In this document: in pieces, positions 5,095 through 21,184 of the stretch
Layout: the number at the start of each line of letters is the position of its first letter
Position numbering within the stretch: the stretch's first letter is position 1
Source of the DNA: an uncultured Thiodictyon sp.
GTDB lineage: Bacteria; Pseudomonadota; Gammaproteobacteria; Chromatiales; Chromatiaceae
Assembly: GCA_903837595.1 (NCBI GenBank)
Contig: CAILVI010000031.1
Location: 1 to 37,067 of the forward strand
DNA: 37,067 bases
Direction: 5' to 3'
Notes under the pieces: generated by a model
The model's database searches: none
The model's input: the letters and a program-made list of their open reading frames with translations, nothing else
What the model was told of the DNA's origin: nothing
Made by a program: the position numbers and the translations under genes

Positions 5095-5096
5095 CA

Positions 5097-6394: not shown

Positions 6395-6402
6395 CTTGAG
6401 AA
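6374..6402 (-). promoter_or_regulatory. candidate repressor promoter (leftward)
   Basis: On the minus strand, TTCTCA (complement of 6397-6402) and CATAGT (complement of 6374-6379) are 17 bases apart, each with 4 of 6 consensus bases. The -10 lies in the centre of the operator dyad, so the two divergent promoters overlap face to face. Confidence 0.45.
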
Positions 6403-6414
6403 CAGATTACCGCC

Positions 6415-6672: not shown

Positions 6673-6693
6673 CCACCACCCGGAGCATCCACC

Positions 6694-7284
6694 ATGCCCG
6701 AACCCACCGCCACCACCGCCTTGGAGGCCCTGGCCAGCAAGGCGCGCACGCTCCAAAAGCGCCTGCGCCGTGGCCAGTTCCAGTTTGGCCCGGCGCATCT
6801 ACTGCTCGGCCAGCGTCTGGCCGATCACCAGTCCGCCTGTCGCCAGACGGGAAACCGTCCCAACGCCCTGTGGGACACCCTCGGCCTCACCTCTGCGGCC
6901 GCGTATCGCCTGATCCGCGTCACCGTCACAGTGCAGCGTCATCCGCCCCTACGCGACCTAGCCGAACGGCAGTACTCCCACGCCATCTGCCTGATCGAGA
7001 CCACCGACGACGAGCTGCTGTCCCAACTGGCCGGCGGCACCCACCCCGATCTGTCCATCGCCGACATCGCGCAGATGTCCGTGCGCGGCCTGCGCGCACG
7101 CCTGCAGAACCTGATGCGCGATTACGGCACCCCGGCGCCCCGCCGCGACCACCGCACCTGCACCGTCGGCCGACTGGCGGATCTGCTCGCCACCCTGCCG
7201 CGCGATCGGGCCATGACCTACTGCGAGTTCACGGCCCTGTTCGATCACTTAGTCCCCAACCCCGCCGCCGACAACGCGGCATAG
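6694..7284 (+). CDS. DUF3102-like early protein, copy 1
   Basis: A 196-residue protein. Residues about 58-145 (ALWDTLGLTSAAAYRLIRV to RLQNL) are roughly 60% identical by hand count to the core of the gene at 13229-14341. The central fold resembles the HTH region of DUF3102/ParB-like phage proteins, where a growth-arm helix is followed by an xxAAAYRLIRVA-type recognition helix. The C-terminal 45 residues differ from the second copy and contain a short helical segment. The start is ATG at 6694 after CCCGGAGCATCCACC. A DNA-binding role is likely, but the process is unknown. Confidence 0.65.
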   Translation: MPEPTATTALEALASKARTLQKRLRRGQFQFGPAHLLLGQRLADHQSACRQTGNRPNALWDTLGLTSAAAYRLIRVTVTVQRHPPLRDLAERQYSHAICLIETTDDELLSQLAGGTHPDLSIADIAQMSVRGLRARLQNLMRDYGTPAPRRDHRTCTVGRLADLLATLPRDRAMTYCEFTALFDHLVPNPAADNAA

Positions 7285-7304
7285 CCACCACCCCGGAGCA
7301 ATCC

Positions 7305-8093
7305 ATGTCCAGCCCTCTACCCTCCACCGTCACCCTGCCCGCCGACGCCGTCGCGATGTACGACGGCCACGCAGTCACGACGAGCCTGAAGATCGCCGAT
7401 ATCTTCGGTCGGAACCACAAGGACGTGCTACGCGCTATCCGCGATCTGAGCGCCAATGCCCCCCAGGCATTTCATGAGCGCAATTTTGCGCCGATGTCCC
7501 GCGAGGTCACGGTCGGCAACGGTGCGACCCGTCCTGAGCGGTATTACAACATCACCCGCGACGGCTTCGTCCTTCTGGTCATGGGCTTCACCGGCCGCCA
7601 GGCGACCGCCTTCAAGATCGCCTACATCGACCGCTTCAACGCCATGGAACAGGCCCTGCACCAGCCCACCCCCTACACCCCCGACCAGTCCACCCTCGAC
7701 CGCCTGGCCGCCTTCGAGGTCAACACCCAAGCCAACCTCACCGCCGCGCAACGCCTACTCACCACCGCCAAGCGCACCCCGCGCAACGCCGCGCGTGAGC
7801 GCGAGCAGGGTCAACTCATCGACCGGCTCCAAGGGGAAAACCTGCGCCTCTTCGCGCGCCTGTGCGCCGCCCATCGCCTGATCCTGCGCGACCCGCTGCT
7901 GTCCGACGTGGCGGAGTGGCACCCCCAGGGCCTGTCCGCCGAGAAGCTCGCCAAGCTCCACGACACCACCGCCGACCTCATCACCGACCTGGCCACCCAA
8001 TGGCAGTCCGCCGGCCTGGTCCTCGACGAGTACACCCGCGCCCGCCTCGGCCTGGCCCGCAACGCGCTGGTGTTCTTGGGGGTGCAGTCATGA
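7305..8093 (+). CDS. Rha family regulatory protein
   Basis: A 262-residue protein. Residues about 20-110 carry the Rha signature: TSLKIADIFGRNHKDVLRAI, then F..SxxxxxxGRPERYYNITRDGFVLLVMGFTG and AFKIAYIDRFNAME. Rha proteins (named from phi-80 and P22-like phages) are early phage regulators that can interfere with growth of some hosts. The second half lacks the usual KilA-C or Ant domain and instead has a long helix and a winged-helix-like end (GLSAEKLAKLHDTTADLI). The start is ATG at 7305 after a GGAG, and the stop overlaps the next gene (ATGA). The domain call is firm; its exact function here is not known. Confidence 0.85.
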   Translation: MSSPLPSTVTLPADAVAMYDGHAVTTSLKIADIFGRNHKDVLRAIRDLSANAPQAFHERNFAPMSREVTVGNGATRPERYYNITRDGFVLLVMGFTGRQATAFKIAYIDRFNAMEQALHQPTPYTPDQSTLDRLAAFEVNTQANLTAAQRLLTTAKRTPRNAAREREQGQLIDRLQGENLRLFARLCAAHRLILRDPLLSDVAEWHPQGLSAEKLAKLHDTTADLITDLATQWQSAGLVLDEYTRARLGLARNALVFLGVQS

Positions 8094-8323
8094 GCCCCAC
8101 CGCCCTGATCCCCGGCGTCTACTGCGCCACCGTCGGCGAGCTGCACGCCCTGCTCGCCACCCTGCCGCCGGAGATGCCCATCAAGGGCCTCCTCGACGAG
8201 GCCATTTCCGTGGTCTATCGCCCGGAGGTCAACACCTGGCGCCCGGGCCAGTCCTACCTGCAACTCGAAGGCTACAACGCCGATTACGGCAATCTGCCCC
8301 ACTGCTCGGAGGTCCTGTCATGA
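8090..8323 (+). CDS. small phage protein, unknown function
   Basis: A 77-residue acidic protein. The N-terminal half, TVGELHALLATLPPEMPIKG, matches a style seen in many small phage proteins (VGEL..L..LPPDxPV), which is recognisable but has no known function. The start at 8090 overlaps the rha stop as ATGA, and its own stop overlaps the next start as ATGA, so it is translationally coupled on both sides. No membrane segment or metal site is visible beyond two isolated Cys residues. Confidence 0.6.
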   Translation: MSPTALIPGVYCATVGELHALLATLPPEMPIKGLLDEAISVVYRPEVNTWRPGQSYLQLEGYNADYGNLPHCSEVLS

Positions 8324-8637
8324 ACTCACGTCAATCGCTCGCCCACCCCGTCGCGCCCGAACAACTGATCCGCTCGACCATGGCGCCGCAGCCCATGGAT
8401 GCCGATGAACGCGCCGCGCGCCGTGAAGCCAATCGCGCGCGCGGCGTGGAGCTCGCGGCCATGCGCCGGGAACGCGATCTGGACCAGGAGCGGCGCGTCA
8501 TGGCGCTGGAGCGTCAGCAGCAGTTCCGCCGCCCCGCGGGTCCGCCGCCCCACCCGGGGGAGTCGTGGAAGGCCCGCACGCGTCAGCGCCGCTTCCGCCG
8601 CCAGGTCGGCCCGGCCTGTGCTCGCGCAGGAGCCTAG
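8320..8637 (+). CDS. Arg-rich helical phage protein, unknown function
   Basis: A 105-residue, strongly basic protein. The middle (MDADERAARREANRARGVELAAMRRERDLDQERRVMALER region) is one long charged helix, followed by a Pro-rich turn and an Arg-rich tail (RTRQRRFRRQ). Such composition suggests nucleic-acid contact or assembly on an acidic partner, but no family is recognised. It is coupled to the preceding gene by a 4-base overlap. The gap to the next gene is 40 bp and contains a fresh ribosome-binding leader. Confidence 0.55.
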   Translation: MNSRQSLAHPVAPEQLIRSTMAPQPMDADERAARREANRARGVELAAMRRERDLDQERRVMALERQQQFRRPAGPPPHPGESWKARTRQRRFRRQVGPACARAGA

Positions 8638-8677
8638 CAGACCCATGCCACCACCCACACCACCCGGAGCACCCACC

Positions 8678-8977
8678 ATGCCCATCACCCTGCCCACCGC
8701 TGCCCTCACGCTGCACGGCCCCCATGCGGAGGCCGCCTGTCAGGCCATGGCCGCCTGCATCGCGCTGTGCCGCGCCGGCTGCCGCCTGCGCAGCGCCCAT
8801 TGCCACGATGATGTCCCCGTCATCACGGTCGACCGCCGGCCGCCCATCCGGCACCTGCGCCCGCAGCTCCTGAGCCGCGATGCCCACTGGTCCGACTTCA
8901 ACGCGCCGATCATGGGCGTGATGGTCGCCTGGTCCGAGCCGCGTCGCCGCTCCGAGCTGCGGGGGAGGGCAGCATGA
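8678..8977 (+). CDS. Cys-rich small phage protein, unknown function
   Basis: A 99-residue protein. Residues about 18-42 contain five Cys and one His with irregular spacing (ACQAMAACIALCRAGCRLRS, then HCHDD), followed by a basic region and a hydrophobic patch near the end (APIMGVMVAW). Metal binding or disulphides are possible, but no standard motif is met. The start is ATG at 8678 after the recurring leader CCCGGAGCACCCACC; the frame also runs open upstream, but that part overlaps the previous gene. The stop overlaps the next start as ATGA. Confidence 0.55.
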   Translation: MPITLPTAALTLHGPHAEAACQAMAACIALCRAGCRLRSAHCHDDVPVITVDRRPPIRHLRPQLLSRDAHWSDFNAPIMGVMVAWSEPRRRSELRGRAA

Positions 8978-9456
8978 GCACGCGCGCCCCTGTCCGACGC
9001 TGGACGCCCGCGGAAGACGCGATTCTCACCGCCCTCTCGGTGGACGGCGGCCCGGTGGACGCCGCCGCCGCCCTGGCTGCCCTCACGGCCGCCGGCCATG
9101 AGCGCTCCGCCGGTGGTGTCACCTACCGCCTGCAGATGCTCGGCCTGTTCAGGGCCACCAAGCAGCCCTGGTGCGCGACCGAGTCGGCCATCATCGCCGC
9201 CGCGCTGGCGCAGCCCCCCACGCTCGGACTGCCCCAACTGGCCTTGGCCCTGGCCCGCCGCGGTTACCACCGCCCGCTCTCCACCATCGCGGACCATGTA
9301 CGGGACCGCGGGACCGCGGCGGCCCCGTCGAGCCACCGCGTCCATCGCCCCGCCCCGCCACCCGCCCATCCGCTGGCCGCGAACGATGCCCAGCTGATCC
9401 CGTACGTCATCGGCCGCGTCTTTCCGGACTGGGCGAAGCAGGGAGCCGGCGCATGA
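8974..9456 (+). CDS. SANT/Myb-like helix-turn-helix phage protein
   Basis: A 160-residue protein. It starts RRWTPAEDAILTALSVDGG and continues to RSAGGVTYRLQMLGL. A Trp-led first helix followed by a second and a recognition-like helix is the layout of SANT/Myb-like or GcrA-like DNA-binding modules used by phage regulators. A second, similar helical stretch (ATESAIIAAALAQPPTLGLPQLALALARRGYHR) may be a repeat of the same fold. Pro/Ala-rich linkers lead to the C-terminus. A DNA-binding transcription factor is likely; the target is unknown. It is coupled by ATGA overlaps to both neighbours. Confidence 0.6.
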   Translation: MSTRAPVRRWTPAEDAILTALSVDGGPVDAAAALAALTAAGHERSAGGVTYRLQMLGLFRATKQPWCATESAIIAAALAQPPTLGLPQLALALARRGYHRPLSTIADHVRDRGTAAAPSSHRVHRPAPPPAHPLAANDAQLIPYVIGRVFPDWAKQGAGA

Positions 9457-9599
9457 ACATACCCGTCCTGCCCCTGTGCGCCATTGCTGTGGCACTGCTG
9501 GCCCTGCTCATCGCCCTGGTCCGGCATCGCCGCGTCCACCACTGGAGCCCGGCGGTGACCGAGCGCGATGAGCATCTGGACCTCTGGGGGATCGGCTGA
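9453..9599 (+). CDS. single-pass membrane microprotein
   Basis: A 48-residue protein. It begins MNIPVLPLCAIAVALLALLIALV, a clear membrane segment at about residues 4-23, then has a basic stretch RHRRVHH and an acidic end. The positive-inside rule puts the C-terminus in the cytoplasm. It overlaps its neighbours (ATGA before, TGATG after), so it is expressed with the early operon. It could be a holin-like, exclusion or host-takeover peptide; nothing visible decides this. Confidence 0.6.
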   Translation: MNIPVLPLCAIAVALLALLIALVRHRRVHHWSPAVTERDEHLDLWGIG

Positions 9600-10219
9600 T
9601 GGCGCCCATCCTTGGCACCTGCCCGCGCTGCCGCGGCACCGACACCATCGCCGCCTATCTGGCGGACCCCGAGACCCGCGCCTGTTGGTCCGCCCTGGAG
9701 CAGCGCCTGGGCGCCCACCCGGCCGTCCTGTCCCGCGTCCTGCCCTACCTGGACCTACACGCCCCGGACGCCAACGCCATGCACCTGCCCAAGCTGCGCC
9801 GGCTGATCGGCGAGCTGGCAGACCTGGTGTTGAGCGACCCCCAGACCCCGGCCGAGGTCTGGGCGCTGGCCATGGACGCCGCCATGGACGCCCGCCAAGC
9901 CGGGACGCTCCGCACCCCGCTGCCCGACGGCTTCGGCTGGCTGAAGTCCGTCGCCATCGCCAAGGCCAAGGACCCCGCCGCCTGTGCCGCCGCCCGCCAA
10001 CTGGCGCGCGCGGCCCCCGTAGGAGCGGCCCCCGGCCGCGACGCCACCGCCGACGCCGCCCTGCGGGAGCTGGAGGACGACGTGCGGCACTGGTTCAATC
10101 TCGTGCACTTAGGCCTTGGCGGCCCCGGTGCAGCGACGGTTCTGGCCGACCTGCAAGCCAAGTACGAGGCCGCCACCGGTGGCCGCTGGATCGATCCCGC
10201 CGCGGAGCCCGCCCCATGA
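9599..10219 (+). CDS. early phage protein of unknown function, with in-frame REP
   Basis: A 206-residue protein starting MAPILGTCPRCRG. The single CxxC near the N-terminus could be half of a zinc site, but no matching second pair is visible. The rest is helical. At residues about 140-149 the peptide VGAAPGRDA is encoded by a REP palindrome (10019-10046) read in frame, and a second helical part follows (LRELEDDVRHWFNLVHLGL). The insertion may be tolerated in a loop. The start is set by the TGATG overlap with the previous gene. No family recognised. Confidence 0.6.
   Translation: MAPILGTCPRCRGTDTIAAYLADPETRACWSALEQRLGAHPAVLSRVLPYLDLHAPDANAMHLPKLRRLIGELADLVLSDPQTPAEVWALAMDAAMDARQAGTLRTPLPDGFGWLKSVAIAKAKDPAACAAARQLARAAPVGAAPGRDATADAALRELEDDVRHWFNLVHLGLGGPGAATVLADLQAKYEAATGGRWIDPAAEPAP
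10019..10046 (+). repeat. REP-type palindrome, copy 2, inside a coding sequence
   Basis: GTAGGAGCGGCCCCCGGCCG followed by CGACGCCA has a perfect GCGGCC/GGCCGC stem. It lies inside the gene at 9599-10219 and is read in frame as VGAAPGRDA. REPs are normally extragenic. Confidence 0.85.
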
Positions 10220-10488
10220 CCATCGACGACCTGATCCGCATCGCCGGCATGGGCCTGGCCTGCGAGGGCATGGACGCGGGTACCACCCTGATCGTGCCCC
10301 CGGGCCATGAAGCCGTGCCCGGCTTCCCGGCCGGCCGCCTGCTGGTCGCCACCAAAGACGGCACCCGCTACCGCTACCCCGCCGCGCACCTCGTCATCTG
10401 GTGTCACGCCCAGCACGCCCGTCCCGACGCCCAGGCCATCACCACCCGCCCAATCACAGCAGCCACACAGGAGCCCGCCCATGTCTAG
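10216..10488 (+). CDS. small phage protein, unknown function
   Basis: A 90-residue protein, start ATG at 10216 overlapping the previous stop (ATGA). The middle has alternating hydrophobic stretches (TTLIVPPGHEAVPGFPAGRLLVATKDGTRYRYPAAHLVIWC), suggesting a small beta-rich fold. The C-terminal 25 residues are Thr/Ala-rich and probably disordered. No family is recognised. The stop lies 8 bases inside the next gene. Confidence 0.55.
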   Translation: MTIDDLIRIAGMGLACEGMDAGTTLIVPPGHEAVPGFPAGRLLVATKDGTRYRYPAAHLVIWCHAQHARPDAQAITTRPITAATQEPAHV

Positions 10489-10672
10489 CCCCTCCCGCCG
10501 CAGCCTCGCGCAAGAGCTGGCCAGCGGCTACAGCGCCCTGCGCCAACTGGCCCGCGCCGCCCGCGCCCGCCCGGACCTGGCCGACCTGGTCGCCTTCGCC
10601 CGCACCGAGGGCATGGCCGCCGTCGCCAACACCCGCCGCGCCCTCATCCTCCCGGAGGTCCCCTATGTTTGA
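10481..10672 (+). CDS. small helical phage protein, unknown function
   Basis: A 63-residue basic, helical protein (SLAQELASGYSALRQLARAARARPDLADLVAFARTEG spans about residues 8-44). It overlaps the previous gene by 8 bases and the gam-like gene by 8 bases, so translation of Gam is probably coupled to it. It is unrecognised. The length and lack of a hydrophobic segment argue for a soluble accessory peptide. Confidence 0.5.
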   Translation: MSSPSRRSLAQELASGYSALRQLARAARARPDLADLVAFARTEGMAAVANTRRALILPEVPYV

Positions 10673-11210
10673 GCCCGCCGTCACCGGCCCCGTCACCCTG
10701 CCGCGCATCGAGCGCGAGGTCTTTGCCCTGCGCCAGCGCCTGGACGCCGCCGCCCAGACCCTGAGCGATTACGAGTCCCAGGTAGCCCCCATCCGCGACG
10801 CCTTCGCGCCGCAGATCCGGCGGCACGCCGCGGAGATCGCGGCGGTCAAGGTGGACCTGATCAAGCTCATCGCCGCCGGCCGCGGCCTGTTCGCGAAACC
10901 GAAGAGCCGCACCATCCACGGGGTCAAGGTCGGCCTGCGCAAGGAGCCCGACCGCTATGCCTGGCCCGCTGATGATGCCCTGGTCGCAACGATCAAGCAG
11001 CTCTGCACGCCTGAGGAACAGAAGGCCTACCTCGTCACCACCACCGTCGGCCGCAAGGACGCCATCCCCGCCGACGCACGCAAGCGCCTGGGCATCGGCT
11101 GCACCCCCGGCACCGACGCCGTGCTGGTAGACGAGCTGGCCACCGGCACCGGCGCCGCCCTGCTGGCGCTGCTTGCCCAACTGCCGGTGCCGGCAGAGGA
11201 GGCCGCGTGA
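10665..11210 (+). CDS. gam: Gam-like DNA-end-binding protein (host nuclease inhibitor)
   Basis: A 181-residue protein. A long N-terminal coiled coil (about residues 13-75) is followed by SRTIHGVKVGLRKEPDRYAWP and a Lys/Thr-rich second half. The helix plus RTIxGVKVGxRK beta segment is the layout of the Mu Gam family (a Ku-like dimer that coats DNA ends), though only the central part is conserved by eye. Mu Gam protects linear phage DNA from RecBCD-type exonucleases during infection. The start is ATG at 10665 with GGAGG about 12 bases upstream. Its position before HU and RdgC genes groups DNA-end protection and recombination control together. Confidence 0.78.
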   Translation: MFEPAVTGPVTLPRIEREVFALRQRLDAAAQTLSDYESQVAPIRDAFAPQIRRHAAEIAAVKVDLIKLIAAGRGLFAKPKSRTIHGVKVGLRKEPDRYAWPADDALVATIKQLCTPEEQKAYLVTTTVGRKDAIPADARKRLGIGCTPGTDAVLVDELATGTGAALLALLAQLPVPAEEAA

Positions 11211-11437
11211 TGAACAGCACCACCCACCCCGGCGACCGAGACGCCACCCCCGAGCAGCTGCGCACCCGCGCCGCCGTCCACCGGGATTGGTCCGCCGAGC
11301 TGCGCCGCAACGCCGCCTATGCCGACAGCGCCCAGGCCCGCGGATTCGACGAGCTTGCCGCCCGCGAGCACGACGCCAAGGCCCAGGAACTGGAGGCGCG
11401 CGCCGCCGCCCTGGAGACCCCCAATGCCCACAGCTAA
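11210..11437 (+). CDS. small coiled-coil phage protein, unknown function
   Basis: A 75-residue, highly charged, helical protein (EQLRTRAAVHRDWSAELRRN, later LAAREHDAKAQELEARAAAL). The pattern DWSAELRRNAAYADSAQARGFDELAAREHDAKA suggests two antiparallel helices with regular Ala spacing. It starts with ATG at 11210 in a TGATG overlap with gam, and its end overlaps the HU-like gene by 14 bases. Not recognised; possibly a partner of its neighbours. Confidence 0.5.
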   Translation: MNSTTHPGDRDATPEQLRTRAAVHRDWSAELRRNAAYADSAQARGFDELAAREHDAKAQELEARAAALETPNAHS

Positions 11438-11840
11438 ACCCGCCACCCTGCTCGGCCATACCGAGATCGTCGCCCACCTGGCCCAGTCCTTCGAACTGCC
11501 CCGCAGCGCGGTGCGCGATGTGCTCGACGGCCTGACGGAGACCCTGTCCTACACCCTCGCGCACGGCGGCCGGGCACGCATCGCCGGCCTTGGCATCTTC
11601 GAGGCGCCGGTGCGCCCCGCCCGCCAGGGCCGCGGCCTGGACGGCCAGCCCTACACCGTCCCCGCCCGCCGCCGCGTCACCCTGCGCCCCGACCGCTCCC
11701 TGTCCCGCGCCGTCGCCGAACCCGCCGTAGGAGCGGCCCCCAGCCGCGACGAGGCTACCCCGATGCACGAGGCCCGCGCGCTGACGCCGGGCCAAATCGA
11801 AGCGTTAGCCGACTATCGCGGGCAGGAGATCCCCTCATGA
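11424..11840 (+). CDS. HU-family DNA-bending protein with C-terminal extension
   Basis: A 138-residue protein. Residues about 5-95 are the HU/IHF fold: HTEIVAHLAQSFELPRSAV, then a GRARIAGLGIFE strand and the DNA-arm region RPARQGRGLDGQPYTVPARR, ending RVTLRPDRSLSRAV. Mu transposition needs host HU and IHF to bend the ends and enhancer, so a phage-borne copy could serve the transpososome. Beyond the fold a 40-residue tail begins with VGAAPSRDE, encoded by a REP palindrome in frame. The start is ATG at 11424, inside the previous gene. Confidence 0.8.
   Translation: MPTAKPATLLGHTEIVAHLAQSFELPRSAVRDVLDGLTETLSYTLAHGGRARIAGLGIFEAPVRPARQGRGLDGQPYTVPARRRVTLRPDRSLSRAVAEPAVGAAPSRDEATPMHEARALTPGQIEALADYRGQEIPS
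11727..11750 (+). repeat. REP-type palindrome, copy 3, inside a coding sequence
   Basis: GTAGGAGCGGCCCCCAGCCG followed by CGAC is near-identical to the copy at 10019. It is read in the same frame as there, giving VGAAPSRD within the tail of the HU-like protein. Confidence 0.85.
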
Positions 11841-12688
11841 TCCGCCACGCCATCATCTACCAGTTCACCGGCCCCACCCCGGCCCTGGCCGCCCTGGAGC
11901 AAGCCGCCGCCGCGCACCCAGCCCGTGCGCCTGGCCCCCCGGAGCCGAGCACCATCGGCTTTGGCCCGCTGCCATCCGGCGACCAGCTGCGCCACGTTGC
12001 CGGCCTCATCGCCCTGTCCGTGCGTCAGGAGCGCCGGCTGGTCCCGTCCTACGCCATCGCCTCCCGGCTCACCGCCGCGAGCCGGGAGGTCGAAGTGGCC
12101 ACCGGCCAGCCCCTGAAGGGTCTCGCCCTGCGCGCCGCGCGCCAAGAGATCTACACCGCCCTGCTCGCCCAGGCCCTCACCACCGCCACCTCCTGCCTGC
12201 TGGTCATCGACCCCACCGCCGGCTGGCTACTGGTCGCCACCCCCAGCCGCCAGCGCGCGGAGGCCGCGGTCAGCCTGCTCCGTCATGCCCTGGATAGCCT
12301 GCCGGTGCGCCCCTGGGTCAAGGACCCCGCCGTCCTGGCGCAGACCATGGCGGCCTGGATCGCCGGCCAGGCCCGGCCGGCCGAGCTCTCCCTGGACGAC
12401 GACGTGCAGTGGAGCGACGCCTCCGGCCAGGTACGCGCCCGCGGCGAGATCGACCTGGCGGAGTTGTGCGCCACCCAGCACGGGCGCCTGCCGGCGCACC
12501 TGCGGGTGACGTGGAATGAGGTCGTGACCTTCACCCTGTACGCCGATGGCCGTCTGGGTCGGCTGGACTTCGCCCCGGGCCTGGACTCGGAGGCCCCCGC
12601 GTTCGATGCCGACCTGACACTGGAGGGCGGGTCGCTGCGGGACGTCCTGGATGGGCTGTCCGCCCATGTCCCCGGAGATGCCCCATGA
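11837..12688 (+). CDS. rdgC: recombination-associated protein RdgC-like
   Basis: A 283-residue protein matching the RdgC layout. An N-terminal strand and helix (IIYQFTGPTPALAALEQ) is followed by a STIGFGPLPSG segment, RQERRLVPSYAIASRLTAAS, a helix leading to LLVIDPTAGWLLVATPSRQRAEAAVSLLRHALDSLPVRP, and a C-terminal part with VTWNEVVTFTLYADGRLGRLDF. RdgC forms a ring around DNA and limits RecA access. The bacterial protein is about 300 residues, so this one is near full length. It overlaps the HU-like gene and the next gene by ATGA junctions. In an early phage operon it may guard replicating DNA from host recombination. Confidence 0.9.
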   Translation: MIRHAIIYQFTGPTPALAALEQAAAAHPARAPGPPEPSTIGFGPLPSGDQLRHVAGLIALSVRQERRLVPSYAIASRLTAASREVEVATGQPLKGLALRAARQEIYTALLAQALTTATSCLLVIDPTAGWLLVATPSRQRAEAAVSLLRHALDSLPVRPWVKDPAVLAQTMAAWIAGQARPAELSLDDDVQWSDASGQVRARGEIDLAELCATQHGRLPAHLRVTWNEVVTFTLYADGRLGRLDFAPGLDSEAPAFDADLTLEGGSLRDVLDGLSAHVPGDAP

Positions 12689-12918
12689 GCGACCAACCGA
12701 CAAGCTGCGACTGCATCGACCAGGTGGATGTAGACCTCGCCAAGAGGGGCGTCCGGCTGATTACCACGACACCGATGAAGGGCCTTGCGTTACTCGAACA
12801 GCGCGTAACCCTCGCCGTCGAGCGGACGGATAGCAGGAGCAGACGCCCCCTGCCGTCCGTTCACGGGACCTTTTGCCCAATCTGCGGCAGGAAGTACGAC
12901 AACGAGGTCCCGCAGTAA
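12685..12918 (+). CDS. small zinc-finger-like phage protein
   Basis: A 77-residue protein with CDC near residue 8-10 and FCPICGRKYD near residue 63-72. One good CPxCG knuckle at the C-terminus and a Cys pair at the N-terminus could together form a zinc site joining the ends, as in small DUF-type phage proteins ending in CPxCGxKY. The start overlaps the rdgC stop (ATGA), and its TAA overlaps the next ATG (TAATG). Function not known. Confidence 0.6.
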   Translation: MSDQPTSCDCIDQVDVDLAKRGVRLITTTPMKGLALLEQRVTLAVERTDSRSRRPLPSVHGTFCPICGRKYDNEVPQ

Positions 12919-13232
12919 TGGCCACCCCAGACGCACCAGCTGCCGAAGCCCCCGCCCGCGACTACACCAGCGAGCCCCAGCAGGTCGTGCTGACCCTCAT
13001 CAGCGCCCTGCTGGACACCTGGCCGGACCCGCAGACCCCGACCACGCTCGCCGCGCGCACCGGCTACAGCCGCGACCAGTGCTACCGCGGTCTGCGCAAT
13101 CTGGCCCTGGCCCGCCACGCCGAAGAGGTCGCCGCCGGCTGGACCATCGGCCCCGTCCTCACCACCGCCGCCGAGCGCATCCGCCAGCGCACCGCGGCGC
13201 TCCTTGCCACCTACCTCGGGAGAACCTCATGA
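12918..13232 (+). CDS. winged-helix-like phage regulator
   Basis: A 104-residue protein. After an Ala/Pro-rich start, residues about 17-75 read as a winged helix: VVLTLISALLDTWPDPQTPTTLAARTGYSRDQCYRGLRNLALARHAEEV, followed by a wing (GWTIGPVL) and a final helix. The TPTTLAxxTGYSRDQxYRxLxNL segment is typical of IclR/MarR-like helix-turn-helix modules. It probably binds DNA and may be the regulator of a later stage. The start is ATG at 12918 in a TAATG overlap. Confidence 0.6.
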   Translation: MATPDAPAAEAPARDYTSEPQQVVLTLISALLDTWPDPQTPTTLAARTGYSRDQCYRGLRNLALARHAEEVAAGWTIGPVLTTAAERIRQRTAALLATYLGRTS

Positions 13233-14341
13233 GCACCGCCCCCGTCGCCCCCGGATCGGCGATCGACCTGCTGACCAGCGGAGTCCGGCCCGCCGTCGCC
13301 TATGTCGACCCCGAAAACGCCCAGAACGTCTATATCCGCGGCGTCCTGCCGGAGTGGATGAAACAGAAGATGCAGGAACAGGGCTACGACTCCGCCAAGA
13401 AGGACGACCGCGAGGCCTTCAAGGCGAACTACCTAATCGAGACCCGTAACCACCCCCAAGCCCGGACCCTCGACATCAGCGACACCCCCGCAGACACCAC
13501 CGACCTGATCTTAGCCACCCAAACCCAGGTCGACCTGGAGGCGCTCAACCATGCAGCACTCGCGCCCGACACCCCCGGCACCGCCCTGACCCCCGCCACC
13601 GTCGACGGCGATTGGATCGCCCGGGAGACATCGATTCAACTGCTGGAGTCCGAGGCCCTCGGCGCGCGTGATGTCTACGTCCGCTCCACGATCGAACTGG
13701 GCCGCGTCCTCCTGGAGCACCGCGACCTCTGCCGCGACAACGGTGAGCGCACCCAAGCCCTGTGGGACCGCCTGGGTATCACCCCCGCCAGCGCCTACCG
13801 GCTGATCCGTGTGGCCGGCGCCGTCAAGGCGATGCCCAGCCTGCGCGACCTGGCCGAGCGCCAGTACAGTCACGCGATCGCACTGATCGAAGGCTCCGAC
13901 GATGACCTGCTGCGCCAGATCGCCAGCGGCGAGCAGACCGAGCTGCCCCTGGACGATATCTCCCAGATGTCGGTCCGCACCCTGCGCACCCGGCTGCGCA
14001 CCCTGACCGAGGACGTGGCCGGCGAGGTCAAGCGCGAGACCAAGGTGCTGACCAAGGAGCGGGATGCACTGGTCGGCGAAGTGGAGCACCTCAAGGCCTT
14101 GGTCGATCCCACCTGGCAAGGCCTGGCCACCGCCACCAAGCGCCTGCGCGCCGCCCAACAGGCCCTGGCCGATGAGTCCCGCGCGGTGCTGACCGTGCTG
14201 GAGCACATCACCGGAGACGATCCCGCCACGCGCCTTGCACTGGAGCAGGCGATCAGCGGCGGCGCCCGGCTGTTCGAGGCCCTGTGGAACCAGTACCAGG
14301 ACCGCGCCCAGGCGGACTGGGCGGACACGACCGGGGAGTGA
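13229..14341 (+). CDS. DUF3102-like early protein, copy 2 (long form)
   Basis: A 370-residue protein. Residues about 145-255 hold the domain shared with the gene at 6694-7284 (ALWDRLGITPASAYRLIRVA, LRDLAERQYSHAIALIE, QMSVRTLRTRL). Before it is a unique N-terminal part containing NVYIRGVLPEWMKQKMQEQGYD. After it comes a coiled coil (about 260-300, KRETKVLTKERDALVGEVEHLKAL) and a helical tail. The domain order suggests a DNA-binding, multimerising factor. The start is ATG at 13229 with GGAG 8 bases upstream. It lies upstream of the transposase genes, so a replication or transposition link is plausible but unproven. Confidence 0.62.
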   Translation: MSTAPVAPGSAIDLLTSGVRPAVAYVDPENAQNVYIRGVLPEWMKQKMQEQGYDSAKKDDREAFKANYLIETRNHPQARTLDISDTPADTTDLILATQTQVDLEALNHAALAPDTPGTALTPATVDGDWIARETSIQLLESEALGARDVYVRSTIELGRVLLEHRDLCRDNGERTQALWDRLGITPASAYRLIRVAGAVKAMPSLRDLAERQYSHAIALIEGSDDDLLRQIASGEQTELPLDDISQMSVRTLRTRLRTLTEDVAGEVKRETKVLTKERDALVGEVEHLKALVDPTWQGLATATKRLRAAQQALADESRAVLTVLEHITGDDPATRLALEQAISGGARLFEALWNQYQDRAQADWADTTGE

Positions 14342-14348
14342 TGCTTCT

Positions 14349-14591
14349 ATGGTCACACCACAGGCAGCTGAGAAGTTGGCGCGCGACGCGCTTCAGCGGT
14401 ACGTCAATGCGTGCGGCTGCAACACCCCAGAAGATAGCGCAAACGTCATGATGAAACTGGTGAGCATGTGCGGCCTGGCGATGTGCGCTGTGGTCGGCCA
14501 GCCTGAGGCAGTCGATAGGCTGCAAGGCACGACCGACTACATCGCGCAGACGCAATCCGGAGTGCAGTGGCGCACCGAGCGCGCGAACTAA
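14349..14591 (+). CDS. small phage protein, unknown function
   Basis: An 80-residue protein with several Cys (NACGCN, then SMCGLAMCAVVG), a moderately hydrophobic middle and a polar tail. Codon use is less GC-extreme than its neighbours, which may indicate a recent addition. The start is ATG at 14349, 7 bases after the previous stop; a GGGGAG sequence upstream may serve as ribosome-binding site. No family recognised. Confidence 0.5.
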   Translation: MVTPQAAEKLARDALQRYVNACGCNTPEDSANVMMKLVSMCGLAMCAVVGQPEAVDRLQGTTDYIAQTQSGVQWRTERAN

Positions 14592-14593
14592 TC

Positions 14594-16246
14594 ATGCCCA
14601 CCCCCGCCCAACTCGCCAGCGCGCGAGACGACTGGAAGGCCGCACCGCGTACCGAAAAGGTCGCGGTGCTGGCCCGTTGGGCGGCGGCACTCGGCATCAG
14701 CGTGAGCACCCTGTACCGGCAGTTCAACGTGCTGGGCGATCGCGGCCCCGCCCGCCCGCGCGAAGACACCCGCCCCGAATATCGCGACTACGCCCGTGTC
14801 GTCATGCAGCAGATGGCCAAGAGCCCAGAGGGCACCATCCCCGTGCATCTGGCGCTCGACTCCTGCTTCAAGCCCAATCCCGATACCGGCGAGGTCCTGC
14901 TGCCACCGTCCGCCGCGCAGATGCCGCTCGCCACCCTGCAGCGCATTCTCACCGACGAACTGGGTGCCCGGCAGCGCAAGCGCCGCACCCGCCGCCTGCA
15001 CGCGGACCACGCCAATCAGGCGTGGCTGATCGACGCCTCGACCTCCAAATATCTGACCGTCGAGCAGGAACTGCCCGACGGTGACTACGTGCTGCGCCTG
15101 TGGCGCAACCCCTTCCCGGCCAGCGGCTACAAGAACAAGCCCCTCGGCCCCGACCGCGCGCGCCTGATCTATTACGGCGTCTGGGAAATGCTCACCGGCT
15201 ACAAGTCTGCCCGCCCCACGGTCGCCCGCGGCGAGACCGGCCTGGACGCCATGGAGTCCCTGGTCTACTTCTTCACCCAGCGCACCGACCCGCGCGATCC
15301 GCTGCACGGCCTGCCCGATGACCTGTGGAGCGACCAAGGCCCGCTCCTCAAGTACGGCGCGACCGCCGACCTGCTGGATCGCCTCGGGGTCAATGTGCCC
15401 CCCTGTGCCCCATACCAAAAGGAGCGCATGGGCGGTGTCGAGCAGGTCTGGGCACGCCTGTGGCAGTCCTTTGAGCAATCGATTTTTCTGCATGCACCCG
15501 CGACCGGGCGCTACGAACTGAAGCTGTCCCAACTCACCGCCCGCCTGGGCGAGTACCTGGCCCGGGAGAACGCGCGCACCAGCCGCAGCGATCCCACCCT
15601 GACCCGCGCCGCGCACTGGGTGCGCAGCATCAATCAGCAGGGCGGCGCCCGCCTGTGTCCGGCCAACCCGATCGAGACCCTGGCCAGGGAAAAGCGCTGC
15701 AAGGTGGACCAGTCCGGCATCATCCGCTGGGACAACACCGAGTACGAAGTCCCCAAGCTGCACAGCTGCTGGGTCATCGCCCGCCGCGCCCTGGACGGCT
15801 CCGGCCGTGTCGTCGTGGAAGACGAGCGCACCGGCGAGCGCTACGACGTAACGCCCTACCAGGGCCTCAAGTACAACGAATGGAAGGGCAGCCAGCCCGC
15901 GCTCCCCATCGACAAGGCCCGCGCCGCCGCCGCCGCACTGCCCCTGCCCGGCGATGTCTACGCCCCGGCGCCGGCCGACGCCGCCCCCGCCAACGTGGTC
16001 ACCGGCCGCTTCGGCCCGCGCCAGCAGCCGGCCCGCGGACTGCCTGATCCCCTGGAGGCCGACCGCTATGCCTCCCTATCCGCCGCCATGGCGGAGTTCT
16101 TCCAGGTCTTCGGCGCCCCGCTGAGCGCCGAAAACCGCGCCGTCGTGGAGCAGCGCTTGCTGCGCGACGGCCTGCGCAAGGACGCGGTGCGCGAGCTCGC
16201 GCTGATCCTATCCACTGCCACCCGCACCACCGGAGCCGCATCATGA
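14594..16246 (+). CDS. MuA-like DDE transposase
   Basis: A 550-residue transposase that cuts and joins the phage ends. An N-terminal HTH-type region (about 20-48, ARWAAALGISVSTLYRQF) precedes the integrase core. The catalytic acids are D147 (AWLIDAS), D247 (DLWSDQGP) and E283 (MGGVEQVW), and the second and third are 35 residues apart, the classical DDX35E spacing. A Mu-type beta-barrel C-terminal domain follows (IRWDNTEYEV to GERYDVTP, about 380-425), then a tail that probably contacts the B protein. MuA itself is 663 residues, so this version is shorter at the N-terminus. The start is ATG at 14594; the stop overlaps the B gene (ATGA). Confidence 0.95.
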   Translation: MPTPAQLASARDDWKAAPRTEKVAVLARWAAALGISVSTLYRQFNVLGDRGPARPREDTRPEYRDYARVVMQQMAKSPEGTIPVHLALDSCFKPNPDTGEVLLPPSAAQMPLATLQRILTDELGARQRKRRTRRLHADHANQAWLIDASTSKYLTVEQELPDGDYVLRLWRNPFPASGYKNKPLGPDRARLIYYGVWEMLTGYKSARPTVARGETGLDAMESLVYFFTQRTDPRDPLHGLPDDLWSDQGPLLKYGATADLLDRLGVNVPPCAPYQKERMGGVEQVWARLWQSFEQSIFLHAPATGRYELKLSQLTARLGEYLARENARTSRSDPTLTRAAHWVRSINQQGGARLCPANPIETLAREKRCKVDQSGIIRWDNTEYEVPKLHSCWVIARRALDGSGRVVVEDERTGERYDVTPYQGLKYNEWKGSQPALPIDKARAAAAALPLPGDVYAPAPADAAPANVVTGRFGPRQQPARGLPDPLEADRYASLSAAMAEFFQVFGAPLSAENRAVVEQRLLRDGLRKDAVRELALILSTATRTTGAAS

Positions 16247-17217
16247 ACCGCCACCTCACCCGCAAGGCATTCGGCCTGACCCGCGACCCATGGGCACGCC
16301 TGCGCCTGGACACCGCCGACACCAGCCGCGTCCGCGATATGCTCGATAGCGCCATCAATGATCAGGCCCTGGTGCAGATCGTTGGCGAGACCGGCATGGG
16401 CAAGTCCACCGCCTTCTGGTCCGGACTCGCCGGCCGGACCGACTTCACGCCGCAAACTGACCTGGTGGAGATCGTCCGCCTGGATCGCGACCGCCGCACC
16501 ATCGCCGATGCCGTCTCCGCCATCTACCGCACCTTGGGCCTGCCGCGTCCGACGCGCGGCGAGGACCGCGACGCCCAGCTGCGCCAGGTCTTGGGCCAGG
16601 CGACCCGCGAGCGGGACGGCGGCCGCCGCACGCTGCTGCTGGTGGTCGATGATGCCCACCGGCTGCACTGGCAGACGGTGGACGCCCTGAAGGGACTGCG
16701 CGAACTGGCCTGGATGGGCCGCAGCCCGCTGATCGGCATCGTCCTGCTGTCCCAGCGTGACGCGCTCGGCAGCCGCAAGGAGATCAGGCAGCGCGCCGAC
16801 ACCCTGCACATGGCCGGTCTGACGACCGCCGAGGTCGCTACCGCCCTGGACCGCACCGTGGGTCACCTGATCGCCCCCGAGGCCCTGCCGATCATCACCA
16901 GCCACGCCGCCGGGCGGACCTGGAATGACATGATCGAGTGCACCGATATCGCCCTGAGTTTGGCCCTGACGGCCGACCATCAGAAGGTGGAGCGGATCGA
17001 CGCCTTGCAGGCCACTGGCGCCGGGTTGAAGGCCATCGCCGAAGCCAGCGGCATCAGCCAGGCCGACTTGGCCCGCCAGACCGGCAGCAGTGAGACCACC
17101 ATCAGCCGCGTGCTGTCCGGCCAGCGCGAAGACCGCGCGCTGCAGTCCCGCATCGCCGATATCCTCATGGGCGGGGCCGACTCGACGCCGCGGCAGGTCG
17201 CCGCCGGGGGCCGCTGA
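16243..17217 (+). CDS. MuB-like target-DNA ATPase
   Basis: A 324-residue AAA ATPase that selects target DNA and activates the transposase. Walker A is GETGMGKST at residues 48-56, and Walker B is in RTLLLVVDDAHRLHW. An arginine-rich segment follows the sensor region, then comes a C-terminal helix-turn-helix (GLKAIAEASGISQADLARQT, then SETTISRVLSG). MuB has its HTH at the N-terminus; here it lies at the C-terminus, as in the TniB/BcepMu-type partners I recall. The gene overlaps the transposase by 4 bases, the usual A-B coupling, and is followed by gemA in a TGATG overlap. Confidence 0.9.
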   Translation: MNRHLTRKAFGLTRDPWARLRLDTADTSRVRDMLDSAINDQALVQIVGETGMGKSTAFWSGLAGRTDFTPQTDLVEIVRLDRDRRTIADAVSAIYRTLGLPRPTRGEDRDAQLRQVLGQATRERDGGRRTLLLVVDDAHRLHWQTVDALKGLRELAWMGRSPLIGIVLLSQRDALGSRKEIRQRADTLHMAGLTTAEVATALDRTVGHLIAPEALPIITSHAAGRTWNDMIECTDIALSLALTADHQKVERIDALQATGAGLKAIAEASGISQADLARQTGSSETTISRVLSGQREDRALQSRIADILMGGADSTPRQVAAGGR

Positions 17218-17756
17218 TGGCCATCCGTCGCCCACTCGCCGACCACACCGACACCAGTGACCGGCTGACAACGCGCCAGGTCGCCGCCATCCACTCCCAG
17301 GTCACGCGGCTTGGACTGGACGATGCCACCTACCGCAAGGCCCTGGGACAGTACCGGTGTGGCACCACCGCACCGAGGCCCGGCCAACCCTGGCCCGCCA
17401 AGGGCGCCCCCTGCACCTCCAGCCTGCACCTCACCCGCCGCCAGGCCCGCGCCCTCATCACCCGTTGGGCGCTCGACGGCGCCCCCGTCGGCGGCGCCTA
17501 CACCGGCTCGCGCCAAGCCGCCGAGGCACAGGCTGCAACCGGAGTGCACCCCCTTCCCACACCAGCGCAACGCGCCCTGATCGCCCACCTGATCCCCGAG
17601 ATCCACTGGCGCGAGGCCGACGGCTACCACCTGTGGCTGACCGCCCGTCTCCACCAGGATCCCGCCACCGCCCCGCGCAGCTACCAGGATGCCGAGGCCA
17701 TCATCGAGGGCCTCAAGGGCCTCCAGCGTCACGGCCATGGCCATGGCGCCCGCTGA
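17217..17756 (+). CDS. gemA: GemA-like protein (Mu gp16, DUF1018)
   Basis: A 179-residue protein. The start RLTTRQVAAIHSQVTRLGLDDATYRKALGQY is the DUF1018 signature. SSLHLTRRQARALITRW and a second half with LPTPAQRALIAHLIPEIHWREADGYHLWLTARL follow. GemA of Mu modulates host gene expression and DNA topology early in infection. Here it follows the A-B pair, as in other transposable phages. There is a basic His-rich end (HGHGHGAR). The start is ATG at 17217 (TGATG overlap); the stop lies inside the next gene. Confidence 0.88.
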   Translation: MAIRRPLADHTDTSDRLTTRQVAAIHSQVTRLGLDDATYRKALGQYRCGTTAPRPGQPWPAKGAPCTSSLHLTRRQARALITRWALDGAPVGGAYTGSRQAAEAQAATGVHPLPTPAQRALIAHLIPEIHWREADGYHLWLTARLHQDPATAPRSYQDAEAIIEGLKGLQRHGHGHGAR

Positions 17757-17988
17757 TCCCCTCATCGCCCCCGAGGTCCGCGTCTGGCTGGCCGGCGCAG
17801 ACCTCGCCGTCAAGGGCTCCTACCGCATCGACGAGGTCATGCGCCTGCTCGACGTGAGCCGCCGCACCATCTACACCATGATCGAACGCGGTGACCTGGA
17901 CACCGTCCGCACCAACCCCGACGGCCAACGCGCCACCCCCACGCGCATCCCCTTCCCATCCGTGGCAGCGCTCCTGAGCGACGACTGA
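17743..17988 (+). CDS. excisionase/AlpA-like DNA-binding protein
   Basis: An 81-residue protein (87 would not fit; the alternative start at 17737 adds two residues). The central part SYRIDEVMRLLDVSRRTIYTMIERGDL is a MerR/excisionase-type helix-turn-helix, and RIPFPSVAALLSDD is the usual end of such domains. These proteins bend DNA or act as small transcription regulators. In a transposable phage without site-specific integrase, a regulatory role is more likely than excision. The start lies inside the end of gemA, so the genes are coupled. Confidence 0.72.
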   Translation: MAPADPLIAPEVRVWLAGADLAVKGSYRIDEVMRLLDVSRRTIYTMIERGDLDTVRTNPDGQRATPTRIPFPSVAALLSDD

Positions 17989-18275
17989 TGGCCATCGACC
18001 CCACCGAGAACGACACCCCACGGTCGGTAGCCGCCGCAGTCGCGATGGCCTCGACGATCCTCCAGGCGTGCGCCCTGGAGGGCGCCAAGGAGCGCACCGG
18101 CCAATCCCGCGGGCTGCGCCTAACCGCGATGACCCGACCCGGTACCATCATCTGGACCGACCCATCTACCGGCGAAGAGCGCTACAGCGCCCCCGGCGAC
18201 CCGATGTACTCCACCGCCCTGATGCTCGCGACCGAGCTGATCGACCCTGACGGCCACCGCGTTCCCTGGCCCTGA
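17988..18275 (+). CDS. last gene of the early operon, unknown function
   Basis: A 95-residue protein starting MAIDPTENDTPRSVAAAVAM, with a helical N-terminal half and a C-terminal half containing TIIWTDPSTGEERYSAPGDPMYSTALMLA. No family is recognised. The start is ATG at 17988 in a TGATG overlap with the excisionase-like gene. It ends 12 bases before a hairpin and about 115 bp before the phage terminus, so it is the outermost gene on this side. Confidence 0.55.
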   Translation: MAIDPTENDTPRSVAAAVAMASTILQACALEGAKERTGQSRGLRLTAMTRPGTIIWTDPSTGEERYSAPGDPMYSTALMLATELIDPDGHRVPWP

Positions 18276-18287
18276 CACCCCGCCCCA

Positions 18288-18308
18288 GGTGTTGGCCCCA
18301 CCAACACC
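18288..18308. terminator. hairpin after the early operon
   Basis: GGTGTTGG (18288-18295), loop CCCCA, CCAACACC (18301-18308): a perfect 8-bp stem just past the last early stop codon. No T-run follows, so it could be a weak terminator, an RNA-end stabiliser, or a protein site near the phage end. Confidence 0.5.
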
Positions 18309-18358
18309 CTGTTGGCCGCCCACCCCTCGCTTACCCGTCGCCTACCCGCTCCCCGCCG

Positions 18359-18390
18359 TTCTTTCGCATTTTTCGCGTTTTTCTTTCGCA
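18359..18390 (+). other. right terminus of the prophage, MuA-type end sites
   Basis: TTCTTTCGCA occurs at 18359-18368 and again, 22 bp later, at 18381-18390, with TTTTTCGCGTTT between. Read from the end on the minus strand it is TGCGAAAGAAAAACGCG and so on. Mu's right end is built from 22-bp sites with the same CGAAA core, and it also carries TTTCGCAT and CGCGTTTTTCG words. The element ends 5'-CA-3' (TG on the other strand) at 18390, where mcrC coding sequence begins. The predicted 5-bp target duplication is CGTCC at 18391-18395. Confidence 0.88.
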
Positions 18391-19531
18391 CGTCCCGGGT
18401 CAGATCGCCATTGCCGGGCTTGCCAGGCTTGTACTTCGCGTCGACGATGGCGCGGCCGACTTTATCCTCGAGTGACACCAAGAAATCCGGCCTAAGCTTC
18501 CATCGGTACTCGTTGGGCAGCGAAAAACACCGTTCCCGCTGAGCCTCTGGCTGACAGTCTGCATACCCAAGACAGACCCCAACCCAGGCCTCGAACAGAC
18601 GATTACCGTCAAGAAAAAACGGCAGGGTGTGCTGGCCCTTGGTGGCGCAACCGGACGGGTCGAGATGCAGGCGGGTCAGCACCAACTCGGCCAGGGCCAG
18701 CGGCTCGGCATAGTGACGCATGGCCCCGTACCGACGCGCCGTCTTCCATTCCCGCGGAGCGATACGCTGCACCGGCACCGCGGTCAGCGCGGCGCGACCG
18801 AGGGCGCCCCAGTGCCAGACCGCGTCTGGCAGGACAGAGCGCGGTTGCTGGTGGAGCCAGCGCAGCCCCGCCGCCAACGCGGCCTTGAGTATGCGGTTTT
18901 CCAGGGTATCGCGCCCCAGCACCGTGAATTCGCAGACCATGCGGTCGGCACGGGCGCGGACCAGGTTCTCGCGGACCTGATCGGCGATCCGCACGCGCCC
19001 GCGTACCCGGCCCACCAGGTTCTCCTCGACGCGGCGGAAGTCCTCCCGCAGGTGCCGCCGCGCGAATTGGGCGAGGCAGTAGAGATAGGCCGTGACCTCG
19101 AGCAGCGTCAGTTGCGGCAGCTCGACGCCTTCGATCGGCGCCTGCGCCGGATCGCAGCCGAACAGCCGGTGGAACTCGACCCCAGTCTGTGTCGGCGGCG
19201 CCGCGAGCACCGCGGCAAAGACCGCGGCCAAGTCCAGCCGCTCCACCTTGGGACGCACGCACAGACAGGGGGCGTCGGCCCCCTCACCCAGACGCACCGC
19301 ACCGATGAAGTGGGAACAGCGGATGCCCCCACCACTCCACCAGTGGAGGCCCAGGGTGCGTGGGTTGTCCGCGGCGGCCGGTGGGCTACCCTCCGAGCGG
19401 TTCCAGGTATGGTCGTGGCCGAAACCGGAGGCGAACGGCACGAGATTGACAGCCTCCGGAAGTGCGCTGCTCTTCCATCGCTGCCATTCACGCCCGGCCC
19501 GCAGGTCGGCCTTGGCGACCGGATAGCTCAC
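18391..19531 (-). pseudogene. mcrC: mcrC, 3' end removed by prophage insertion
   Basis: McrC is the nuclease partner of the McrB motor in modification-dependent restriction. The host-encoded part is 380 codons plus one base. It shows the McrC helical region (ENLVGRVRGRVRIADQVREN, then CEFTVLGRDTLENRILKAAL) and a PD-(D/E)xK core: RPDF at 347-350 and DAKYK at 364-368. Just after LTRD (residue 380) the frame enters phage DNA and reads 69 more unrelated codons to a stop at 18182. The usual following helix with the Q motif is lost. The start is GTG at 19531, directly after the mcrB stop. The rest of mcrC should lie beyond the far end of the prophage. Loss of function is likely but not proven, since the core acids remain. 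Confidence 0.88.
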
Positions 19532-21184
19532 TCAGTTGGCCTCCTGCGCGTCGGCCCCCTCAATGGGCGTATCGGCCGGCCCGTCATCGGCGGTACGGTC
19601 GGCCCCTTGCGGCGCGCCGTCGGCGAGCGGCGCCTGCACCAGGGCCGCATTCGGGCACAACGCGATTTTCAGCCGTGCCATTAGCTCCGACGCCGGCTCC
19701 ACCTGCGTTAGCGTGATCGGCTTGATGCCGGGTACCGTGAGCGCGGAACCGGTCAGAATCCCGTCCTTCACGTATTCGCGCAGCAGCGGTACTACCTGAT
19801 AGACGAACTTGTGCAGCAAGTGGTCGCAGTCCCTCGCGAAAAAATAGGTGTGTCCCGGCTGCACATCGTCTGCGTACACCTCCGCCGAGAGCGCCCCGCC
19901 AGGCCCGAACAGCGCCCCCACCGCATTGAACAGGACGAGTGCGGCCGTGCGTACCGAGGCGTTTGCGTAGTTCCAGTTCTCGATCTCCTTAAGCGCCGGT
20001 GGCATAGGCGCAAACCCGAAGCGTCGGCGCACCGCGTAGTCGATATGCCCAATAGAACGGTCGGCCGCGTTCATCGTACCAATGAGGTACAGGTTCTTCG
20101 GCACTGTCAGGCTGCACCCGTCCGGATGAACACCGTATGGGGTACGCACCGGCTGCCCGCGATACTCCAACGCATAGATCAACTCGCCGAGCACCGCGGC
20201 CAAGTTGGCGCGGTTGATCTCGTCGATGATCAGCACATGGGGCTGATCGGGTGTGGCAGCAGCACGTTTGCACAGGTCGCCGAATACGCGATTGACCGTA
20301 TCATAGCGGACCCGCGCCGTGTTCTGATCCGTTTTGACCTGGATGCCGCGCACGAAGTCCTCATAGTTGTACGCCGGGTGGAACTGCACGATGTCCCAGC
20401 GGTCGCCCTGAGCAGCGAGAAAGTCGCCATGGTCGGGGTCTTGCGGATCGGTGCCAGCCGCGGGCTGAAAGTCCAGCAATTTGGCGCACAACCGCTTGGC
20501 CATAAAGGTCTTGCTGGTGCCCGGCGGCCCATGCAGGATGATTTGCCCCATCTCTTTGAGCAGGGTTTGCAGTTCCACGAGCATTTGATTTTGCCTCTCG
20601 TTGAGAAACTTCTGCCAGGCGTCTGGGCAGTAGACGGCCTCCCAGATCGGCATCAACTGGTCGAAGTATTCGAGGATCTCCTGCGCCATCGCTGCGATGG
20701 CTGCCGGATCGTCCTGCCAGGGCTGGAAGAATCGACCGAAGAAATAGAACACTGGCTCCGGCTGGGTGGGCACCTCGCAAAACCCATGATAATCCTGAAA
20801 TCCCGGATGCGCAGGCGGCCCCTGCTCGTTCCAGATGATCGAGTGCAGCGGCTCGGGGAACCGGCCGACGAGCCGATTAAAACGTGCCCAGACCGTCGGA
20901 GGCCGCCGCCTAACTTGGCGCCCAGGGTTTGCAACGTTTGGCCATCCCCTGAAGCTTAACGCCAACCCGGCGCGCACTTGACCGGGATACTCGTGGCCCA
21001 ACGCAACATTGAATTGCAACTCGTCCGTAGTTCCGGCTTTGGCGAGCGTCGGATCTACAACGCGCAACCCCATATAGCTACCGATAGGCATACATTCCCG
21101 GCGCCGCTGGACAAACGAAGCAAACGGATGCGCTCCGGTCCTCGCGAGGTCATTAATTTGGGTAATCAGATCGGCAAACGGCAC
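19532..21184 (-). CDS. mcrB: McrB-like GTPase/ATPase of an McrBC restriction system
   Basis: A 550-residue protein. The AAA motor occupies about residues 200-470: Walker A GPPGTSKT (219-226), the family segment FHPAYNYEDFVRG, Walker B LIIDEINRAN, the McrB signature GTMNAADRS and the arginine segment DYAVRRRFGF. McrB motors translocate DNA and trigger McrC cleavage. The N-terminal 190 residues (LALSFRGWPNV, SIIWNEQ, GFCEVPTQPEPVFYFFGRFF) do not resemble the methylcytosine-binding N-domain of E. coli McrB, so the DNA modification sensed may differ. A polar, probably flexible tail follows residue 510. The start is GTG at 21184, with a good GGAGGTGA 7 bases upstream. It forms an operon with mcrC (stop and start adjacent). 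Confidence 0.92.
   Translation of the reverse strand: MPFADLITQINDLARTGAHPFASFVQRRRECMPIGSYMGLRVVDPTLAKAGTTDELQFNVALGHEYPGQVRAGLALSFRGWPNVANPGRQVRRRPPTVWARFNRLVGRFPEPLHSIIWNEQGPPAHPGFQDYHGFCEVPTQPEPVFYFFGRFFQPWQDDPAAIAAMAQEILEYFDQLMPIWEAVYCPDAWQKFLNERQNQMLVELQTLLKEMGQIILHGPPGTSKTFMAKRLCAKLLDFQPAAGTDPQDPDHGDFLAAQGDRWDIVQFHPAYNYEDFVRGIQVKTDQNTARVRYDTVNRVFGDLCKRAAATPDQPHVLIIDEINRANLAAVLGELIYALEYRGQPVRTPYGVHPDGCSLTVPKNLYLIGTMNAADRSIGHIDYAVRRRFGFAPMPPALKEIENWNYANASVRTAALVLFNAVGALFGPGGALSAEVYADDVQPGHTYFFARDCDHLLHKFVYQVVPLLREYVKDGILTGSALTVPGIKPITLTQVEPASELMARLKIALCPNAALVQAPLADGAPQGADRTADDGPADTPIEGADAQEAN

Follow-up and report, generated by a model that had tools for sequence, protein, structure and literature searches.

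Has a prophage landed in a restriction gene by choice or by chance, and what is left of the gene? The question arises from a locus at which an mcrC frame runs without a stop into the end of a phage element. The window (the whole stretch of DNA analysed) is the entire contig C31, 37,067 bases in length, of the draft genome G000 (7.79 Mb, 576 contigs). The host belongs to the same genus as Lamprocystis purpurea (strain DSM 4197, genome G002). Lamprocystis species are purple sulphur bacteria, so the host should be one of these or a near relative. The features that bear on the question are collected in Table 1. No tRNA was found in the window. A 1667-residue protein with protein kinase, AAA_16, GAF, and GGDEF domains is encoded at 23063-28066 (minus strand). 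Beyond mcrB lie PrpF and aconitase genes (28120-32380), and the C-terminal part of a citrate synthase was found at the far end of another contig, C14 (C14:14-697); these may be pieces of a single methylcitrate locus.

Table 1. Position, strand, and supporting evidence of the features at the mcrC-prophage locus (window coordinates)
Feature	Position	Strand	Evidence or remark
Portal protein	127..1656	-	phrog_145, E 2.6e-49
Terminase large subunit	1826..3289	-	phrog_38, E 1.2e-93
Overlap	1..125	+	identical to C14:27265-27389
Right-hand 18.4 kb of prophage	1..18400	.	left-hand 18.3 kb is C14:9108-27389
Phage transposase	14567..16246	+	phrog_310 transposase, E 3.8e-18; tblastn: weak similarity to transposases annotated in phages
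DNA transposition protein, AAA ATPase with HTH	16243..17217	+	phrog_296, E 6.2e-19; AAA_22 and HTH
Phage protein, family phrog_286	17217..17756	+	E 4e-6; homologue in G002
449-codon open frame	18182..19531	-	377 mcrC codons followed by 72 from the prophage
Two GCGAAAGAA repeats, 22 bp apart	18359..18390	-	same pair on the C14 left end at 9117 and 9139
Terminal ten bases of element	18391..18400	.	outside the GCGAAAG repeats; same length in the L. purpurea copy
Right copy of target duplication, CAGAT	18401..18405	.	left copy CAGAC at C14:9103-9107
mcrC 5′ fragment	18401..19531	-	377 codons, GTG start; PD...D-A-K motifs retained; PF10117; G006 tblastn; alignment with homologues
mcrB-like gene	19532..21184	-	550 codons, open, directly upstream of mcrC; AAA_5, E 2.1e-16

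Junction and target duplication

The mcrC frame matches PF10117 (E 9.2e-26, profile positions 2-281 of 318), and the 5′ fragment passes in frame into the end of the element. Thus, the first-pass annotation was right to call it an mcrC truncated by a transposable prophage. Where aligned, in its C-terminal part, the mcrB-like protein is 53-57% identical to its McrB counterparts in three congeners, and an AAA_5 McrB stands beside McrC at this locus, as is the pairing in McrBC systems. Where exactly does the gene end? A tblastn search with the McrC of the congener G006 ends exactly at position 18401. Thus, the fragment has 377 mcrC codons, and the bases 18391-18400 belong to the phage. The earlier count of 380 intact codons, with a junction within a G|TG codon at 18391, was therefore ten bases off. 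In the sister prophage of L. purpurea, ten bases likewise lie between the right TTTCGCA and the host sequence, which supports this position of the junction.

The two flanks of the prophage in G000 share CAGA (window 18401-18404 and C14 9103-9106), and the fifth base is T on the right and C on the left. The 5-bp duplication CGTCC that had been predicted is absent at the far end. The flanks of the L. purpurea prophage share CTGAC exactly. One substitution in G000 has to be assumed for a duplication of 5 bp, but none for one of 4 bp (CAGA, CTGA) or of 3 bp (CAG, CTG); with 3 bp, both ends of both copies start with AC. The two copies are compatible with a duplication of three, four, or five bases. 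According to the comparison with host sequences, the termini of the element begin with AC, CA, or AG, depending on the duplication length, and never with the TG of TG...CA termini.

Prophage and rejoined gene across two contigs

If the prophage interrupts mcrC, the left flank should continue the gene. I searched G000 with a C-terminal alignment built from four homologues, and a single place was found at E <= 10 (C14:8854-9111, E 1.2e-18). The left flank does continue mcrC, as the first-pass annotation had predicted. The mcrC 3′ part proper occupies C14:8854-9107 and adjoins the opposite end of the prophage. When the flanks are joined and CAGA is counted once, an open mcrC frame of 461 codons results. 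Across the join it reads D-L-F-Q-I-V-G-Y, and the homologues have D-L-Y-Q-(I/V)-(I/V)-G-Y. In the alignment of the rejoined frame, a gap of 7 columns closes two residues short of the join; it falls in a loop that is of variable length in the homologues too.

The contigs C14 and C31 are joined here by the 125-bp overlap, not by reads. In the G000 genome, no third match to the overlap was found at E <= 0.001. C14 ends 13 bases past the overlap, and those 13 bases diverge. A 19-base stretch is repeated 174 bp apart at this end of C14 (L024:7311 and 7485), which suggests a tandem duplication or an assembly loop by the 1-125 overlap. The transposase gave a single match in G000 at E <= 1e-20, and so did the right end within 3 mismatches. 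Since the overlap has two places only and both the transposase and the right end match once, the element is read as one prophage of about 36.56 kb (36,557 bp), present in one copy.

The gene content is Mu-like in two respects. First, a transposase (phrog_310) is followed by an AAA+ transposition protein (phrog_296), and a DDE transposition mechanism of the Mu type may be presumed from these sequences. No Pfam family was matched by the transposase, and its AlphaFold model is poor (mean pLDDT 51.8). Second, tailed-phage genes for head, packaging, and tail are found in one element within the range of 35-40 kb; tape-measure, scaffold, and head morphogenesis genes lie in the C14 part. The paired GCGAAAG repeats at the ends are probable transposase-binding sites.

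Do relatives without the prophage have the same shortened mcrC? At E <= 0.001, the frame 18182-19531 matched 8 of 55 genomes. Within the genus (eight genomes including G000), G000, G001, G004, G005, and G006 match at E < 1e-79; the match in G002 is weak and confined to the phage end, and the congeners G003 and G007 have no match to this frame. A full-length McrC without a phage was found in three of the seven other congeneric genomes searched, namely G005 (467 residues), G006 (487 residues), and G004 (466 residues). Thus, these relatives carry the complete gene and not the same shortened form, as expected of an interruption by the prophage.

Sister prophage and fate of the restriction system

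I found a sister prophage in L. purpurea DSM 4197 (NZ_KB902501.1, G002:C138:15944-51028). The two prophages have transposases that are 45-46% identical, collinear gene matches where compared, paired GCGAAAG end repeats, and the same left terminus AGGCGGCG, with 8 bases identical. The gene order of the sister agrees across the C14-C31 join. The open reading frames of C14 8500-20000, at the left prophage end, gave no match to the L. purpurea prophage at E 1e-8. Unlike the G000 prophage, the sister is 35,085 bp in length and sits in a histidine kinase gene. The gene split by the sister encodes a hybrid histidine kinase with HisKA, HATPase_c, and response regulator domains (L023:5268-5990 and L012:1681 onwards), and its frame is open once the flanks are joined. 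Like mcrC in G000, the kinase frame reads on into the phage end, here for about 14 codons. No description of either prophage was found in the paper library searched.

How common is this phage? The genome collections searched contain one genome per species. Two copies (G000 and G002) were found among 210 genomes of the order, and G000 alone appeared among the matches listed for 369 genomes drawn from the class. The left-end pattern was found in G000 and G002 among 194 genomes of the family, and a scan of genome contigs gave L. purpurea only. Two of three viral-contig scans revealed the same distant relative (L030, IMGVR_UViG_3300025554_000017), whose transposase is 53% identical; the stretch of L030 examined contains nothing that closely matches the GCGAAAG repeats of the ends. 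Four matches to the left-end pattern in the third viral-contig scan lack the second repeat nearby and were taken as chance. Insertion at unrelated sites, another Mu-like trait, is thus seen in two copies only, one in mcrC and one in a histidine kinase gene.

Both junctions, the contig overlap, the open rejoined frame, the full-length homologues, and the sister insertion elsewhere were established directly. Almost certainly, a temperate transposable phage of about 36.56 kb transposed into the last fifth of mcrC, duplicated three to five target bases, and split the gene after codon 377 of 461, between D-A-K and Q-x3-Y. Q-x3-Y is the label of a nuclease motif; among the matches listed, no paper containing the motif name QxxxY was found. 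The insertion separates D-A-K from the conserved Q-x3-Y of the PD-(D/E)xK nuclease, which is thus no longer complete in one frame, while the homologues carry both motifs (with D-S-K instead in one of three). Because the two motifs are parted, the McrC nuclease is very likely dead, as judged from sequence. The McrC product would most likely be a 449-residue fusion with a nonfunctional nuclease, and this McrBC pair would no longer cut DNA. The insertion probably took place not long ago, since both mcrC halves are still open. The site itself is best explained by near-random transposition into a genome that has several McrBC copies, a view of targeting that is based on two copies of the phage.

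What remains of the McrBC pair? It had been claimed that McrB was left as an unpaired motor. While cutting by the nuclease is likely gone, this expression may be too strong, because the break is near the C-terminal end of McrC and the part described as the McrB activator, DUF2357, is N-terminal (PMC11090510, as far as the accessible part of the paper goes). It would thus be conceivable, if unlikely, that the 449-residue fusion still activates McrB and that the two proteins retain GTPase activity although the nuclease is lost. The frame is indeed open through the phage end, but DUF2357 was not matched in the G000 McrC, and the fusion protein itself is a prediction. The accessible part of a study on Campylobacter describes a pseudogene in the mcrB position in one strain and, in another strain, sensitivity to 17 of 43 phages upon deletion of mcrB (PMC8713573).

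Does the host lose its immunity? Three other mcrB-mcrC pairs are open in G000, with the McrC genes on C505, C107, and C32 and an AAA_5 partner beside each. PADLOC gave no hit for the four McrC proteins; for the four McrB-like proteins its top-listed models were those of type II REases, and two of these proteins also had weak mad8 or IetA hits. Pfam was therefore used for McrBC. Since the three other pairs remain, McrBC-type immunity is at most reduced. Thus, of the natural loss of immunity proposed in the first-pass annotation, the loss of this one system is likely, with its motifs split, and the loss overall is at most partial.

Those three pairs may also make the locus redundant, and it may be asked whether mcrC was already dead when the phage arrived, the insertion being neutral. 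The congener G001 has the same mcrBC locus with no phage, and there the mcrB frame is broken near L010:3280 and mcrC has a short insert with stops at about 1510-1375 of L010 (G001:C118, minus strand). The G001 insert has a palindromic core and imperfect terminal inverted repeats of about 17 bp, like a MITE. Two of five congeneric copies of this mcrBC locus are thus broken, by different events, and the decay of the locus does not need a phage. Such independent decay would suit a gene already dead in G000, but both mcrC halves and all of mcrB are open there and the conserved motifs are present, which makes an earlier death rather improbable.

The insertion in a restriction gene might instead mean that this phage family favours defence loci, or that an insertion in mcrC was selected as an aid to phage establishment; the first-pass annotation had considered target choice or selection for the loss of mcrC after infection. 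Target choice found no support: the one close sister copy that came to light lies in the hybrid histidine kinase gene, losing one of four mcrBC pairs would gain little, and the G001 locus was broken without a phage. I regard a preference for defence genes, or such a selection, as very improbable. That the two parts of mcrC derive from separate genes or strains and are linked by an assembly artefact is hardly credible, even for a draft of 576 contigs with a short divergent tail at the C14 end, since the overlap has no third match, the prophage is single, the rejoined frame is open, the duplicated bases match, and none of the other three McrC proteins lacks its end, as each reaches the last position of the profile.

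The simplest reading is an ordinary kind of event, the near-random transposition of a phage into a defence gene that is redundant and belongs to a type for which losses by other routes are seen as well. Is there a precedent? Among the matches listed, no published transposable prophage inside mcrC was recognised by title or abstract opening. In the accessible parts of PMC3072379 and PMC6456863, mcrC appears just in a strain genotype, and no transposable prophage in mcrC was found in those of PMC5311958 and PMC7344871. At this locus, the probable natural knockout of a type IV restriction nuclease is mapped to the level of single bases, and the second site, in L. purpurea, helps to place the ends of the element in a little-known group of transposable phages from purple sulphur bacteria. 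A prophage in a restriction gene is, by this example, no sure sign of target choice: the sister copy sits elsewhere, and in a congener the locus was lost in another way.

Comparison with Mu, KS10, and known McrBC systems

Like Escherichia phage Mu (NC_000929), the prophage has a transposase and an AAA transposition protein. I compared the ends of the G000 and G002 prophages with those of Mu. The best 30-base match to the right end of Mu surpassed every one of 200 base shuffles for three of the four ends, and 198 of them for the G002 right end; these matches start at Mu base 19, not at the tip. The result for the left end of Mu is mixed, as 0, 1, 9, and 134 of 200 shuffles reach the matches of the four ends. 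Mu starts with TG, whereas the G000 and G002 prophage ends do not. Also unlike Mu, the transposition genes of this prophage are read toward the end, and its target duplication is not clearly 5 bp. It may be, though this is less likely than not, that the phage represents a little-studied transposable branch with 5′-AC...GT-3′ ends that would duplicate just 3 bp (C-A/T-G), unlike the 5-bp duplication and TG...CA ends of Mu.

Other phages lend themselves to comparison. According to the accessible part of its description, the Burkholderia transposable phage KS10 is without TG...CA termini, inserts randomly, and has 15-bp imperfect repeats as putative transposase sites; unlike in the present case, no flanking direct repeats were found in KS10 (PMC2628397). 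KS10 is not among the six phage records matched by the G000 transposase. Leptolyngbya phage Lsp-JY19 and Stenotrophomonas phage phiSHP3 are among the best public-phage transposase matches, with 25-26% identity over 69-75% of the G000 transposase.

The G000 locus resembles McrBC type IV systems in having a PF10117 McrC and an AAA_5 McrB. The profile of this McrC group matches the solved McrC chains 6ut5 (E 1.7e-9) and 6hz4 (E 1.9e-7), which are the McrC of T. gammatolerans and of E. coli, respectively. In the aligned stretch of 6ut5, D-A-K likewise precedes Q-x3-Y. The corresponding stretch of 6hz4 has D-A-K and L-Y-Q-x3-Y in a weak match (i-Evalue 5.2). The solved chains are distant in sequence, and the G000 McrC is split.
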